NCBI GenBank assembly: GCA_023473795.1
Contig: JAMCYS010000105.1
Coordinates: forward strand, 1-48,155
From: Chloroflexota bacterium
Lineage (GTDB): Bacteria; Chloroflexota; UBA6077; FW602-bin22; JAMCYS01
Direction: 5' to 3'
Length of the DNA stretch: 48,155 bases
This document shows, piece by piece, positions 10,789 to 18,965 of this stretch. The translations under genes and the position numbers were made by a program. Position 1 is the first letter of the stretch, and each line of letters opens with the position of its first letter. A model generated the notes under the pieces. The model was not told where the DNA came from, did not search any database, and saw nothing but the letters and a program-made list of their open reading frames with translations.

Positions 10789-13700
10789 ATGCACTCCTTT
10801 GCTCGACGCAACGCCGTCCTCCTCCTTCTGGCGCTATTGGGCCTGCTGGGTCTGGCGACAGGGATAGTGCTGCAGGGACACAGCTTCCCCGTGGCGCAGG
10901 TCGAATTCCATTTGCTCGGTCCTGACGCGGAGAAGGCGGCCCGCGAGTATCTCCAGGCCCGTGGCTTCGACACCACTGGCTACCAGGCCGCCGTGGCCTT
11001 CGACGTGGACGATACCGCTAAGGGCTACGTGGAACGCCAGGTAGGCCTGGCGCAACTGAACCGGCTGGCCGCCGGCGACCTGAATGTCTGGCGCTGGAGA
11101 GTCCGCTTCTTCCGCGAGCTGCAGGAAGAGGAGTTCAGCGTCTACCTGTCTCCCAATGGCCGGCCCGTCGGCTTCTCGCATCAGCTGCCGGAGGCGGCAC
11201 CAGGCGGCCAGCCAGAGCAGGCCCGGGCGCTGGCCAACGCGGGGGCGTTTCTGCGCACCACGGGCCGCGACCCGGGCGACTACGCCCTCGTCACAGCCAG
11301 CGCCGAGCAGCGCCCCGCGCGCACGGACTTCATCTTCACTTGGGAGCGCAAGAACTTCCACGTCGCCGACGCCTCGTACCGGGTGGACGTCTGGACTCAG
11401 GGCGACGACATCGGTGGCTACTTCGAGTACCTGAAAGTGCCGGAGGCCTGGCAACGGGCGGAGGCAATGGAGGCCAACCGTGGGGGCCTGCTGGCCAACC
11501 TGGGCTGGACGCTCACCTACGGTCTGGGTCTGTTGATGGCCCTGGTTGGCCTCTGGCGGTTGCGTTCCGGGCGCGTGCACTGGCGCTTCGCCCTCTCCCT
11601 GGCGGGCGTTATGGTGGTCATTGCCGTCGCCGTGGCCATCAACTCGTTCCCGCTGGTGCTCATCGACTACCCGACCACCTCCAGCATGTCAGCTTACCTG
11701 CTTGGTCGCTTGCAGTCTCAGTTGCTAAGCCTTCTGCCCACCGGAATGGCAGTGGTACTCGCGGGAGTTGCCGGCGACTGGCTGTACAGCCAGGTATTAG
11801 CGCGTCGGCTGGCGCCGCATCTGCTGTTTAGTCGACGTGGCCTGCGTTCGCGCGAGTTTGTCACCGCCGTGTTGGCCGGCTACGCCGTGGCAGGCATCTG
11901 GCTCGGTTACGTCACCGGGTTCTACACCGTGGTCTCCTCCTGGTTCCACGCCTGGTCGCCCGCGGAGCTCCCCTATCGCGACGTTATGACCACCCTGCTG
12001 CCGGCGCTGTATCCGCTCACGGTCGGCTTCGGTGCCGCCGTCAGCGAGGAATTCGCCTTCCGCCTCTTCGCCGTCCCGCTCTTGCTCTGGCTTGCCAGAC
12101 GGTACGTCGTGCGGAGCGCCTGGGCCCGGCGCTCGGCGGCCGGGCGCGTGGTCAGTGCATTGGCGGTGCTGGGGGCGATAGTGGTGCCCGCGTTCGTCTG
12201 GGGCTCGCTGCACTCCACCTACCCGCAGCAGCCTTTCTTCATCCGGGCGGTGGAGGTCGGTATTATCGGCTGCCTCGAGGCGCTGCTGATGTTCCGCTTC
12301 GGCATCCTGGCGACCGTCACTGCCCACTACACCTACAACGCCTGCGTCATCGGCGGTCTCTTTCTGCTCTCGCCCGACTGGTACCTGCGCGGCTCGGCGC
12401 TGTTCGTGGTCTTGCTGCCACTAGCAGTGCTGCTGCCTGCCGCGGCCCAGCGACGGGCCCGGCGGCCCCTGTACGAGAACTCCGAGCTGGCGGAGGCGCC
12501 GGTCGAAACCACGCCGGTTCCCTTCGCCCAGTCCAGCCGGACGCCGGGCCGGGTGCTATGGCTGCCAGGCCGCCGTCAACTACGTGAACTGGCGGTGCTG
12601 GGGGCCGTCTGCGCGGCGTTGGCTTTGGCCTGGCAGGTGCCTCGACTCGGTGACGGACTGCGTACCGACTTGGACGCATCGCAAGCGGCGGCGGCGGCCG
12701 ACTCGTCCTTGCGCCAGTTGGGGCTAGACCCCGGGCAGTGGGACTCGGCGACTAGTTTTGGCGATTGGAGTGTGGGCAATCAGACGGCCTATCTGTTGCG
12801 CCGCTTGGGCACGACGGAGACGAATCGCTTTCTGCAGAACGATCTGCCGAGCTACCTCTGGCAGACACGCTACTTTCGTCCCGAACAGAAAGAGGAGATC
12901 TCCGTGCGTTTCGATCAGCTTGGCCGCCTGCAAGGCCTCGAGCACACGCTGGCCGAGGACGCTCCCGGCGCCCATCTCAGCCAGCAGCAGGCCCTCGCGC
13001 TGGCCGAGGCTTTCGCTCACGGTCAGGGCAAGGACCAGGCGCTACGCGGGGAGCTGGTCACCGCCGCCAGCCTCGAGCGTCCCGCGCGGACGGATTATAG
13101 TTTCGAGTGGGAGACGAGAGACCCGCGTCTGGGCGAGGCCACCCTCCGTTTGCGCATCACCATAGCAGGAGATCAGATTGGCAGCTATGGCACTTACCTC
13201 AAGGTGCCAGAGGCCTTCAACCGTGCCCTCGCCAGCCGCAGCGCCGCGGACCAGGCGCTCGACCTGCTGCGGCAGGGGCTGCAGCTGGCGGTGTTCTTCG
13301 GCGCCTTGGCCCTCTTCGCCCTGCGCTATCGTAGGGGCCAGATCGACCCGCGCTTCGCCGCCGCCAGCGCAGGCCTGATGGCCGGCCTCTCCCTGCTGGG
13401 AACGCTCAATGGCCTACCCACGTTCTGGACCGGCTATTGGACGACCGTCGACGCGCCGGGCTACATCGGCTGGCGTCTGGTTTGGCTAGTACAGGGGATC
13501 GGCGGTAATTTCGTCTGGTATCTGGTCCTCTTTGGCGTTGGCGAGTCACTTTTCCGAGAGTTGTTCCCCGACGCCCTGCCGGTGGGCCAGCAGCTATGCG
13601 GACTGTTGAACGACGGGCGGCCCGCTTTGGCCAAGGGTCTGTCAGCACTGGCGATGGCGCCGGCGCTGTGGTTACTGCTCGCCGCCTACCGCTGGGCTAG

Positions 13701-14217
13701 GGAGGCCTATGCCGCCCAGTCCCTCGTGGCCGAGGCGACCGTGCCAGCCGGACTGCTCAACACGTTCGCCCCGGCCCTGGAGGTGGCTCGCGCCAACCTC
13801 TCGTTCTCCCTTTGGGTCGTGCTTGGGGCCCTGCCGACTACCCTCTGGCTCTACCGGCGCCTGCAGCGGCGCTGGGCCGTGGCCCTCGTCTGGGTCTTTG
13901 TGCTCACCCTGTTCTACGGTGGCCGGCCGGAGGAGTGGCGCATGTGGTTGGTGGAGGGCGCTCGCTGGCTGCTGTTCGTCGGCCTAGTCTACCTCGCCGC
14001 GCGGAGGTATCTGGGGGAGAATCTGGGAGGCTACGTCCTGGCACTCTATACACTCCTGGCGGGACGCGATGCTTTGTCCCTCCTGCAACAGGATCAGCGG
14101 TGGTACTGGCTCAATGGCACTATTGCCTTAGCCCTGGCATTGGCGCCGGGACTGCTGCTCATCCTGGTTTCGTTTGTTCGCCAGATGGCGACCCGACGAA
14201 CGGCCGGTGTGACCTAG
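10789..14217 (+). CDS. Large CPBP-family membrane protein with internal tandem duplication
   Basis: A 1142-residue multi-pass membrane protein, far longer than usual CPBP (Abi/CAAX prenyl protease-like) proteins of 200-300 residues. Each half has an N-terminal helix, a soluble domain and a membrane block. The soluble domains are clear repeats: RPARTDF (Arg175) and YLKVPEA in the first, RPARTDY (Arg764) and YLKVPEA in the second, 589 residues apart. The first membrane block has the CPBP site: Glu420-Glu421 in VSEEFAFRLF, His475 in WGSLHST and His513 in TAHYTYNA. The second keeps only VGESLFRELF (Glu919, Ser920) and lacks the histidines, so it is probably inactive. It may be an intramembrane protease; the substrate is unknown. 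It begins at ATG 10789 without a ribosome site. Confidence 0.85.
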   Translation: MHSFARRNAVLLLLALLGLLGLATGIVLQGHSFPVAQVEFHLLGPDAEKAAREYLQARGFDTTGYQAAVAFDVDDTAKGYVERQVGLAQLNRLAAGDLNVWRWRVRFFRELQEEEFSVYLSPNGRPVGFSHQLPEAAPGGQPEQARALANAGAFLRTTGRDPGDYALVTASAEQRPARTDFIFTWERKNFHVADASYRVDVWTQGDDIGGYFEYLKVPEAWQRAEAMEANRGGLLANLGWTLTYGLGLLMALVGLWRLRSGRVHWRFALSLAGVMVVIAVAVAINSFPLVLIDYPTTSSMSAYLLGRLQSQLLSLLPTGMAVVLAGVAGDWLYSQVLARRLAPHLLFSRRGLRSREFVTAVLAGYAVAGIWLGYVTGFYTVVSSWFHAWSPAELPYRDVMTTLLPALYPLTVGFGAAVSEEFAFRLFAVPLLLWLARRYVVRSAWARRSAAGRVVSALAVLGAIVVPAFVWGSLHSTYPQQPFFIRAVEVGIIGCLEALLMFRFGILATVTAHYTYNACVIGGLFLLSPDWYLRGSALFVVLLPLAVLLPAAAQRRARRPLYENSELAEAPVETTPVPFAQSSRTPGRVLWLPGRRQLRELAVLGAVCAALALAWQVPRLGDGLRTDLDASQAAAAADSSLRQLGLDPGQWDSATSFGDWSVGNQTAYLLRRLGTTETNRFLQNDLPSYLWQTRYFRPEQKEEISVRFDQLGRLQGLEHTLAEDAPGAHLSQQQALALAEAFAHGQGKDQALRGELVTAASLERPARTDYSFEWETRDPRLGEATLRLRITIAGDQIGSYGTYLKVPEAFNRALASRSAADQALDLLRQGLQLAVFFGALALFALRYRRGQIDPRFAAASAGLMAGLSLLGTLNGLPTFWTGYWTTVDAPGYIGWRLVWLVQGIGGNFVWYLVLFGVGESLFRELFPDALPVGQQLCGLLNDGRPALAKGLSALAMAPALWLLLAAYRWAREAYAAQSLVAEATVPAGLLNTFAPALEVARANLSFSLWVVLGALPTTLWLYRRLQRRWAVALVWVFVLTLFYGGRPEEWRMWLVEGARWLLFVGLVYLAARRYLGENLGGYVLALYTLLAGRDALSLLQQDQRWYWLNGTIALALALAPGLLLILVSFVRQMATRRTAGVT

Positions 14218-14281: not shown

Positions 14282-15176
14282 ATGGAAGAACAAGAGAGCG
14301 AAGTGACTGTGCGCCCGGCGCGGCCCGCGGACCGCGCGGCGGTGCTTGCCTTTTGCGTTGACACCTTCTCCTGGGGAGACTACATCCCCGAGGTGTGGGA
14401 TCAGTGGCTGGCTGATCCCAACGGTCAGCTGCTGATTGCCGAGGTAAGCGGCGTGCCGGTTGGCCTGCAGCACGTGGCCTTCTTGACGCCCGGCGAGGGC
14501 TGGCTGCAGGGCCTGCGCGTTGACCCTGCCGTGCGCCGCCGGGGGGGTGGCGAACGCCCTCTTGGAAGCAGGCCTGGCGGTCGCCGAGCAGCAGGGCGCG
14601 ACGGCGGTGCGACTCTTCACGGCCTCTGACAACCAGGCCACGCAAAGAATGTTAGCCAGCGCCGAATTCCGTCAGGTCGCTGCTTTCACTCACCTGGTGG
14701 CTGACGCCGAGGCTGGGGTCGGCCCTTCACCGGAACGGGCGGTCGCGGCGGAAATCGGGGCTCTGTGGGCTCTAGTGCAGGACAGCCAGTCCTACCGCCT
14801 GGCGGAGGGTCTGTATTGCCTGGGCTGGCGCTGCGCGCACCTGACCGAGGAGAGGCTGAGACGCCTTGTGATCGAGGGCGAGGTCTCGGTGTTGCGTCAG
14901 CAGGGAAAGCCGGTAGCCGCCGCTGTCACCCTGCCCGCCGTGCATAGCTGCGAAGCCGACCTCTGGGTGGCCGGAGTGTACGGCGACCACCAATCGGTGT
15001 CCCACCTCTCCCGGCTGCTGCGCGCCCGCTCGGCCGGCCTGGGGTGGAAATCCGTTTCCCTGCTCTCGCCGGACGTACCGGAGGTTGTGGCGCCACTGCT
15101 GACCGCCGGTTTTCACCGGGACCACGAGGAAGCGCCCGCGATGCTGCTCTACGAGAAGGAGCTTCACCCGTCATAA
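14282..15176 (+). pseudogene. GNAT acetyltransferase gene interrupted by a one-base frameshift in a G run
   Basis: Two frames together encode a 297-residue protein with a GNAT domain followed by a second GNAT-like half. The first frame runs to 14629 and reads sensibly to LQGLRVDPAVRRRG; the family-type continuation VANALLEAGLAVAEQQGA is in the next frame, open to 15176. The break is at seven Gs (14541-14547); removing one G joins the frames perfectly. Acetyl-CoA binding would be at RRRGVAN. A real mutation, phase variation at the G run, slippage during expression or an assembly error could each explain it. Homologues act on amines or aminoglycoside-like substrates, but the substrate here is unknown. 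Confidence 0.8.
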
Positions 15177-16945: not shown

Positions 16946-16975
16946 ATTATAGTGGCTCGCCAGGCTGCTCCGCAA
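16946..16975 (-). promoter_or_regulatory. Promoter for the isomerase gene
   Basis: On the minus strand: TTGCGG (16975-16970), 18 nt, consensus TATAAT (16951-16946). Confidence 0.55.
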
Positions 16976-17028
16976 GTTTGCCGGCCGGCGGTCGAGCCGC
17001 CACCGCCGGCCGACCCCGGCCATTGGGT

Positions 17029-17034
17029 TATAAT
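17029..17034 (+). promoter_or_regulatory. -10 element for archease-rtcB
   Basis: Consensus TATAAT 43 nt before the archease start; no clear -35. It lies about 80 nt from the divergent isomerase promoter. Confidence 0.45.
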
Positions 17035-17077
17035 TGACTGGCAGCCCACTCGATGGCTGGCAGCCTGGAGGACGCTC

Positions 17078-17491
17078 GTGCAGCCTTATGAGTACTTCGA
17101 GCACACAGCGGACATCGGGCTGCGGTCCTTTGGCAGGGATGTGGCCGAAGCCTTTGCTAACGCAGGACGCGGGCTCAGCGCTTTGCTGGTAGATCCCTCC
17201 ACGGTGCAGCCGCGGGAAGAGCGCCAGGTGACGCTGCAGGGCGGGGAGCTAGCTGAGCTGTTGGTGGAATGGTTGAACGAGATTCTCTTCCTGGCCGACA
17301 GCGAAGGCTTTCTGGCAGTCGATGTGGCGGTACACGTGGTGAACGAGCAGGGCTTGCGAGCCAGCTTGCGGGGAGAACGGGCCGACCTTTCTCGCCATCG
17401 CCTCCTGGGGGGAGTCAAGGCGGCCACCTACCACCAAACGCAGGTCCGTTGCGACGGCGGCTGTGTCGTGCAGGTGATACTGGATGTTTGA
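17078..17491 (+). CDS. Archease
   Basis: A 137-residue protein of the archease family (MTH1598/TM1083 type). The opening YEYFEHTADIGLRSFG carries the conserved Asp, and LLVEWLNEILFLADSEGFL and GGVKAATYHQTQV are family blocks. Archease binds metal and activates the RNA ligase RtcB by promoting its guanylylation. GTG 17078 is supported by GGAGG 6 nt upstream. rtcB starts 19 nt downstream, so the two form an operon, which is direct context for its role. Confidence 0.92.
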   Translation: MQPYEYFEHTADIGLRSFGRDVAEAFANAGRGLSALLVDPSTVQPREERQVTLQGGELAELLVEWLNEILFLADSEGFLAVDVAVHVVNEQGLRASLRGERADLSRHRLLGGVKAATYHQTQVRCDGGCVVQVILDV

Positions 17492-17510
17492 TGCCTAAGG
17501 GAGGACACTC

Positions 17511-18965
17511 GTGAGCAAGCCCGGACGCCTCAAGAGGATAGACGAATACCGCTGGGAGCTGCCGACCACCTACAAGCCGGGTATGCGCGTGCCGGGTCTG
17601 GTGTACGCCGACGAGAACTTGGCGGCGCAGATCGACGCCGACCAGGCGCTAGAGCAAGTGGCTAACGTCGCTTTTCTTCCCGGCATCGTCGGGCATTCCC
17701 TGGCGATGCCGGACATTCACTGGGGCTACGGTTTTCCCGTGGGCGGCGTAGCGGCAACTGGCGTCGAAGACGGTGTGATCTCGCCCGGGGGCATCGGCTT
17801 CGACATCAACTGCGGCGTGCGCCTGCTGTGCAGCGACCTAAGCGAGGTGGGGGTGCGGCCGCGGCTGGTCAAGTTGACGGAGGCGATCTTCCACGGCGTG
17901 CCCTCGGGGGTAGGAGTTGGTGGCAAGGTGCGCTTGGCCGGCAAGGAGATCGACGAGGTGCTGCGCCAGGGTGCTCGCTGGGCCGTTGCCCGGGGTTACG
18001 GCAGCGAGGATGACCTGGAGCGCACCGAAGAGCGTGGTACCTTCTCCGCAGCCGACCCCGGCAAGGTAAGCGAGAAGGCCAAGCAGCGGGGCACGCCGCA
18101 GCTAGGCACACTGGGTTCGGGGAACCACTTCCTGGAGGTACAGGTGGTCGATCGGGTCTACCTGCCGGACGTGGCCCGTGCTTTCGGCATTGCGGGTACC
18201 GGGCAGGTAATGGTGCTCATCCATTCCGGCTCGCGCGGACTCGGCCACCAGGTCTGCGACGACTACTTGCGGCTGATGGGCCCGGCGGTACGCCGCTACG
18301 GCATTGAGGTGCCGGACCGCCAGTTAGCCTGCGTGCCCTTCGAGGCGCCCGAGGGCCAGGCTTACTACACGGCCATGGCCGCCGCGGCGAACTACGCCTG
18401 GGCCAACCGCCAATGCATCGCCCACTGGGTGCGTCAGGCCTTTGAGCAGGTGTTTGGCAAAGATTACCGCGATCTTGGCCTGCAAATGGTGTACGACGTC
18501 GCCCATAACATCGCCAAGGTGGAAACCTACCAGGTAGAGGGCGTACGCCGGCGCCTGGTTGTGCACCGCAAGGGCGCCACTCGCGCCTTTCCCGCCGGCC
18601 AGCCGGGACTCCCCGAGCCCTACCGCGCCGTTGGCCAGCCGGTGCTCATTCCGGGCGACATGGGCCGCTACTCATTTGTCGCCGTGGCTGGCGAGAAGGC
18701 GATGGCGGAGAGCTTCGGCTCCACCTGTCACGGCGCCGGCAGGCTGCAGAGTCGTTCGGCGGCCACCAAGAGCCTACGTGGCGTCGACGTGGCCGGTCGG
18801 CTGGCCAAGCAGGGCGTGGTCGTGCGCGCCAGCGGCGCCGGCACGCTGGCGGAGGAGGCGCCCGAAGCCTACAAGGATGTGGCCGATGTCGTGAGGGTGG
18901 TGGACGGCGCCGGACTGGCTCAGCGCGTGGCGCGGATGCGGCCCCTGGGCGTGGTCAAGGGCTAG
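17511..18965 (+). CDS. rtcB: RNA-splicing ligase RtcB
   Basis: A 484-residue GTP- and Mn-dependent RNA ligase joining 2',3'-cyclic phosphate or 3'-phosphate ends to 5'-OH ends. Metal ligands are recognisable: Cys101 in GFDINCGVRLL, His206 in GSGNHFLEV, His238 in IHSGSRGLGH and His332 in YDVAHNIAK. His407 in STCHGAGR is the residue that takes GMP. Length and motif order match the family. GTG 17511 follows AAGGGAGG. It is cotranscribed with archease. In bacteria the pair is linked to RNA repair or tRNA processing; the RNA target here is unknown. Confidence 0.97.
   Translation: MSKPGRLKRIDEYRWELPTTYKPGMRVPGLVYADENLAAQIDADQALEQVANVAFLPGIVGHSLAMPDIHWGYGFPVGGVAATGVEDGVISPGGIGFDINCGVRLLCSDLSEVGVRPRLVKLTEAIFHGVPSGVGVGGKVRLAGKEIDEVLRQGARWAVARGYGSEDDLERTEERGTFSAADPGKVSEKAKQRGTPQLGTLGSGNHFLEVQVVDRVYLPDVARAFGIAGTGQVMVLIHSGSRGLGHQVCDDYLRLMGPAVRRYGIEVPDRQLACVPFEAPEGQAYYTAMAAAANYAWANRQCIAHWVRQAFEQVFGKDYRDLGLQMVYDVAHNIAKVETYQVEGVRRRLVVHRKGATRAFPAGQPGLPEPYRAVGQPVLIPGDMGRYSFVAVAGEKAMAESFGSTCHGAGRLQSRSAATKSLRGVDVAGRLAKQGVVVRASGAGTLAEEAPEAYKDVADVVRVVDGAGLAQRVARMRPLGVVKG

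Follow-up and report, generated by a model that had tools for sequence, protein, structure and literature searches.

It is not immediately apparent why a bacterium would keep, within a single polypeptide, an intramembrane protease domain with a full set of catalytic residues and a second copy from which these residues have been lost. This question is raised by an ORF in the 48,155-nucleotide stretch of Chloroflexota DNA analyzed herein (the window), which runs as a single intact frame of 1,142 codons with no stops from 10789 to 14217 on the + strand (Table 1). An earlier note, made from the letters alone, described its product as a CPBP protease-like protein duplicated in tandem, with an active first half, a degenerate second half, and two copies of an unassigned soluble domain, and suggested a built-in dimer whose inactive half would regulate or bind substrate. 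The product is the sole match to itself within its own 4.44 Mb, 170-contig assembly, and its relatives on named contigs point to an origin within or close to Chloroflexota.

Table 1. Features of the ORF and its product (res, residues of the protein).
Feature	Coordinates	Strand	Basis or remarks
Whole ORF, 1142 aa: (PepSY-like pair + CPBP-type membrane domain) x2 in tandem	10789..14217	+	
N-terminal membrane helix, half 1 (res 8-32); charges place the N-terminus inside	10810..10884	+	AF2 model, hydropathy, loop charges
Soluble domain 1 (res 40-222), predicted outside: two PepSY-like modules of YcdB/YcdC type	10906..11454	+	PF16244 in relatives; helix + 4 strands twice; internal repeat
Helices 1-3, half 1 (res 219-336); half 2 holds a second copy	11443..11796	+	BLAST/profile alignment, AF2 model
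CPBP/Rce1-like catalytic core (res 355-556)	11851..12456	+	PF02517 match; most conserved region
EExxxR motif: E420, E421, R425	12046..12063	+	Invariant across aligned homologues
H475, second catalytic motif	12211..12213	+	Invariant
HxxxN motif: H513/N517 (N517 replaced by D in Acidobacteria MAG)	12325..12339	+	Conservation in homologues
Inter-half linker (res 557-596), predicted cytoplasmic	12457..12576	+	pLDDT low across most of the linker; 9 K/R; poor conservation
First membrane helix, half 2 (res 597-613)	12577..12627	+	AF2 model, hydropathy/loop charges
Soluble domain 2 (res 626-811)	12664..13221	+	Fold and invariant residues (W, R, A, A, RxD, FxW, R, G, P) as in domain 1
Helices 1-3, half 2 (res 817-926)	13237..13566	+	BLAST, profile alignment
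GESLFRELF (res 918-926): end of half-2 helix 3, no catalytic remnant	13540..13566	+	Alignments
C-terminal membrane part, half 2 (res 945-1137): six predicted helices, without catalytic residues	13621..14199	+	Collinear with CPBP core; core comparison alone not significant (E 0.12)

By all measures of sequence similarity applied, the tandem duplication in this ORF is real and is not an effect of chance or composition, because BLAST aligns half 1 with half 2 at 37% identity over 255 aa (59-308 versus 645-897, E = 4e-37), because the global alignment score of the halves (332) lies far beyond the scores of 100 shuffles (-70 ± 20, maximum -22), and because direct DNA repeats occur within the ORF at a spacing of 1767-1770 nt. 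This spacing equals 589-590 codons and agrees with the 589 residues that the earlier note had given as the distance between the halves, whose internal duplication is thus borne out by self-alignment. The duplicated stretch comprises the soluble domain and the first three helices that follow it, the two copies lying ~590 residues apart. Profiles of half 1 and half 2 align over 484 columns (E 1.4e-54), and the membrane parts alone give E 2.3e-9, mostly from helices 1-3. The kinship of the second half with the first, on which the earlier proposal depended, is therefore found, although it is secure no further than the third membrane helix.

The shared membrane layout that had been proposed is likewise recovered in the AF2 model, wherein helix number and order are equal between the halves, each having one N-terminal helix and nine helices after the soluble domain (half 1: 8-32, 219-260, 265-285, 300-336, 355-386, 407-445, 450-474, 483-504, 506-526, and 531-546; half 2: 597-613, 819-848, 854-873, 889-925, 946-979, 994-1025, 1028-1043, 1047-1075, 1079-1099, and 1104-1141). 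The product would accordingly be a 20-helix membrane protein built from two parallel repeats.

Prokaryotic CPBP proteases are widespread and largely unexplored (PMC11980579). Their EExxxR and HxxxN motifs and a middle histidine are the catalytic motifs of MmRce1 and of the experimentally tested myxosortase MrtX (PMC11980579), and half 1 resembles these type II CAAX prenyl endopeptidase Rce1-like proteins in having EExxxR, the second-motif histidine, and HxxxN within membrane helices. Pfam PF02517 (Rce1-like) matches half-1 residues 406-518 (E 1e-5; 26.0 bits versus a curated cut-off of 22.4), which makes this the only half of the protein to match, and 12 of 12 first halves match at E ≤ 1 (best 3.8e-15). 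As the earlier note had recognized, half 1 holds a Glu-Glu pair (E420/E421) and both histidines (H475 and H513). Its catalytic residues are conserved, as a claim of activity would demand: E420, E421, R425, W471, H475, Y478, R486, E489, and H513 are invariant in the window protein, other Chloroflexota, and one Acidobacteria MAG, and N517 is nearly invariant across the homologues aligned. The half-1 core is also the best-conserved region of the protein (mean pairwise identity 44%, 33 invariant columns), and Foldseek with the full model lists Rce1 4cad at probability 0.57 (E 0.52, TMt 0.38). On its sequence features, half 1 belongs to the CPBP-type glutamic intramembrane endopeptidases and has a full catalytic set, and these features strongly imply that it is an active protease.

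The soluble domain had been left unassigned, and in this respect the earlier description can be amended. Mapping against known domains yields the YcdB/YcdC repeated domain (PF16244, DUF4901), which lies above cut-off in relatives, namely L016, from a MAG labelled Acidobacteria (36.1 bits), and the Herpetosiphon-type genomes G119 (28.4 bits) and G098 (27.5 bits). The window copy in half 2 scores 17.1 bits and falls below the cut-off of 27 (E 0.006), with E 4.9e-6 in a relative. PF16244 and PF02517 are both above the Pfam cut-off within the one chain of L016, and across 151 genomes of the phylum only these CPBP-fusion proteins match PF16244.

The PepSY fold consists of one helix and four strands (PMC10653890). 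DSSP of the AF2 models, read for the number and kind of elements, divides each soluble domain into two modules of one helix and four strands, and pLDDT is about 90 over most of the length. The two modules within a soluble domain are related to each other (hhalign probability 83%, E 9e-6). With the full model, Foldseek returns 4exr at probability 0.91 and the DUF2874 structure 4k61 at 0.69, both nonsignificant at E > 0.1; DUF2874 has been placed with PepSY in the BLIP-like superfamily (PMC10653890). The PepSY PF03413 profile has no match to the soluble domains up to E = 10, and in a PDB sequence search the family profile has no match and the soluble domain has one nonsignificant match. Based on the profile matches of relatives and on the predicted fold, the soluble domain is best assigned to the YcdB/YcdC type and is PepSY-like. 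It shares with YcdB/YcdC the modules of a helix and four strands, and it differs in being anchored ahead of a CPBP protease, twice. Eleven ectodomain residues (W103, R106, A147, A151, R178, D180, F183, W185, R198, G205, and P218) show no variation among all the first and second halves compared, which suggests that the two ectodomains are similarly constrained.

The second half is without the catalytic set, as had been claimed. PF02517, even with hits up to E = 1 allowed, matches none of nine second halves, the half-2 positions that pair with E420/E421/R425/H475/H513 are unconserved, and the catalytic residues are absent in 7 of 7 second halves compared. The further claim that GESLFRELF is a trace of the active site does not stand, since in both joint and profile-profile alignments this segment lies on the wrong helix, where it pairs with half-1 GDWLYSQVL (329-337), ~90 residues ahead of the catalytic pair. 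Among relatives the site reads DSLYNELF or ESLYRAMF, or is absent (Herpetosiphon), and the homologue L002 has GAALYNKMF at this place in its first half and DSLYNELF in its second. The position of the segment in the third helix after the soluble domain, together with its nonconservation, rules out a decayed EExxxR motif.

Beyond this helix, the relationship between the halves is fainter. Leaving aside the N-terminal helix, no region of the protein is less conserved than the C-terminal membrane part of half 2, which has a mean pairwise identity of 23% and 2 invariant columns out of 193, and its model confidence is low (pLDDT 30-63). One possibility is that the duplication took in the ectodomain and went no further than the third helix after it, such that the last ~190 residues are unrelated to the CPBP core and half 2 is receptor-like rather than a pseudo-CPBP protein. 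Consistent with this, a profile comparison of the catalytic core with the C-terminal part of half 2 alone is not significant by itself (E 0.12, probability 0.5%), and no Rce1 structure appears among the 50 Foldseek matches listed for the half-2 model. The Foldseek comparison is a weak test, because even the full model, which includes the active half, reached 4cad only at the probability given above; neither model has a match at E ≤ 0.001. However, the two halves agree in the number and order of their helices, their profile alignment stays collinear to the end, and a half-1 profile aligns with the second half of the homologue in G003 over 14-548 of 578 positions. We therefore consider an unrelated C terminus rather unlikely. 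Given the equal predicted helix order in both halves, the most plausible reading is that half 2 duplicates the whole of half 1 and that its catalytic part has since become unrecognizable, homology over the last ~190 residues being collinear but below significance on its own.

Two-half proteins are found, in addition to the window, in G003 (same order), G023 (same class), and eight Herpetosiphonaceae-type genomes, and among named contigs in a Chloroflexi MAG (L015) and in the Acidobacteria-labelled MAG of L016. The family is rare, occurring in 11 of 400 genomes sampled across the phylum. A profile search of named contigs gave 11 loci, a search of these contigs with a single protein gave no match, and plasmid and phage collections gave none. 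Single-half homologues, for which the earlier note had recommended a search, do exist: three related 718-aa chains, Anaerolineales-type by the genomes searched (L022:6950-9106, L023:6989-9145, and L024:6932-9088), have the catalytic residues intact and end, in place of half 2, with a GNAT domain that scores above the Pfam cut-off. A YcdB-type ectodomain, an intact CPBP core, and GNAT in one chain make an unusual fusion. In a tree of the halves, one ancestral duplication is not rejected (AU p 0.54), nor is it shown, and the Acidobacteria second half is unplaced. Two other variations were observed among the homologues. In half 2 of L014:6898-8712, a AHPEPAAHPEPA-type repeat is inserted between helices 3 and 4, within a loop predicted to be cytoplasmic. 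In a Herpetosiphon-type genome, a small soluble-domain remnant with an in-frame TGA (L013; G280:C3:517950-518120) lies ~10 kb from the full gene and is probably a decayed second copy.

These homologues bear on whether half 2 might simply be a decaying leftover of tandem duplication that has no function of its own. Every catalytic residue is gone from half 2, its membrane part is as poorly conserved as described above, and the single-half relatives manage without it. Nevertheless, the frame is intact in every two-half homologue read, even though these represent divergent lineages at 28-41% identity, and soluble domain 2 retains the invariant residues of domain 1. For these reasons, we think it unlikely that half 2 is such a leftover. 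Its retention together with the soluble domain in every two-half homologue suggests that the dead half has a job, and because the active-site residues are all lost whereas the ectodomain signature residues are kept, this job is more likely to be binding or gating than catalysis.

The predicted topology offers a clue to how such a role could be exerted. Loop charges place the N terminus inside and both ectodomains outside, with the halves in the same orientation, and from the positive charges we infer that the ectodomains occupy the outer face of the membrane. Under this topology, ~13 residues would separate E420 from the point where its helix reaches the outer side, and H475 would stand at the outward tip of the helix that follows. 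Given these positions, the active site would be turned towards the membrane's outer half, on the side of the PepSY-like modules.

Several precedents are relevant to this arrangement. First, PepSY domains are recorded, in a citation of the original work (Yeats 2004, cited in PMC10653890), as having first been described as intramolecular protease inhibitors. Second, catalytically dead CPBP proteins are known (Staphylococcus aureus LnsB and SpdC/LyrA, and APH-1 of gamma-secretase), and a chaperone-like or scaffold role has been proposed for LnsB and APH-1 (PMC7387801). Like half 2, these have a CPBP-type membrane domain without catalytic residues, but they are separate polypeptides, whereas the dead copy in the window, with its putative CPBP fold, shares a chain with an active half. 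Third, membrane proteins can plug or gate the cleft of an intramembrane protease (PMC9042235). The likeness to SpoIVFB with BofA/SpoIVFA extends to this idea of gating, although SpoIVFB is an intramembrane metalloprotease of an unrelated family and its inhibitors are separate proteins.

Because of these three kinds of precedent and the predicted topology, we favor an outward-acting, regulated endopeptidase. Specifically, the best explanation, to which we assign a probability of about 0.5, is that half 1 is an outward-facing intramembrane protease and that the dead half and the four PepSY-like modules gate it or present its substrate. In this scheme, half 1 would most likely cleave, close to the outer face, a substrate that is exported or anchored in the membrane, half 2 would be its duplicated, catalytically dead partner, and each half would contribute a pair of PepSY-like modules, recognized from sequence and model, on what is predicted to be the outer face. 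Together with the dead half, the four modules could then form an in-cis scaffold that controls the substrate or presents it to the active cleft. More tentatively, it is possible that the outward PepSY-like modules of the dead twin sense a signal or substrate and thereby open or close the active half, which would make the protein an in-cis pair of enzyme and pseudo-enzyme.

An alternative role for half 1 is that of a protein-sorting endopeptidase which, like the myxosortase MrtX, cuts a C-terminal tag of surface proteins. The two share their catalytic motifs and family (PMC11980579), and the active site of half 1 is predicted to lie towards the outer half of the membrane. However, no NCBIfam sorting-family model matched, and an unsystematic inspection of the genes adjoining the ORF recognized none for a tagged substrate. 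Moreover, described members such as MrtX are small single-domain proteins (239 aa for MrtX, which has no second half), whereas the window protease is fused to an ectodomain and a dead second copy. A sorting enzyme thus seems quite improbable.

No conserved gene neighborhood was recognized by eye across lineages, and the surroundings give no hint of a substrate. The next gene downstream (14282-15176, +) encodes a GNAT-type acetyltransferase and is interrupted by a frame break close to seven consecutive Gs (14541-14547), such that the match is split between ORF 14282-14629 (first part) and 14520-15176 (remainder). This break may be a sequencing error or a real frameshift. Genes for archease and RtcB RNA ligase adjoin at 16952-18965 (+), a pairing that is known. 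The proposal that half 1 is part of a lipid or acyl transfer machine rather than a protease seems highly improbable: it draws on the GNAT domain of the three single-half relatives and on LnsB, a CPBP-like acyltransfer factor (PMC7387801), but LnsB is diverged at the catalytic motifs, all of which half 1 keeps, and the GNAT gene adjoining the ORF has no detectable similarity to the fused GNAT.

Returning to the regulated, outward-acting protease, we found no description of a PepSY/YcdB-CPBP protein or of a tandem CPBP protein in the open-access literature searched. The component parts are each known; no instance of their combination turned up in that literature. Distant bacteria, culturable Herpetosiphon among them, keep a dead copy and PepSY-type modules in one chain with an active CPBP domain, which makes regulation directly testable, and the single-half relatives provide a natural comparison for CPBP regulation. 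If true, regulation by a dead twin would amount to the pairing in cis of an enzyme with a pseudo-enzyme among the glutamic intramembrane proteases, a class whose bacterial members have seen little study of how they are controlled.
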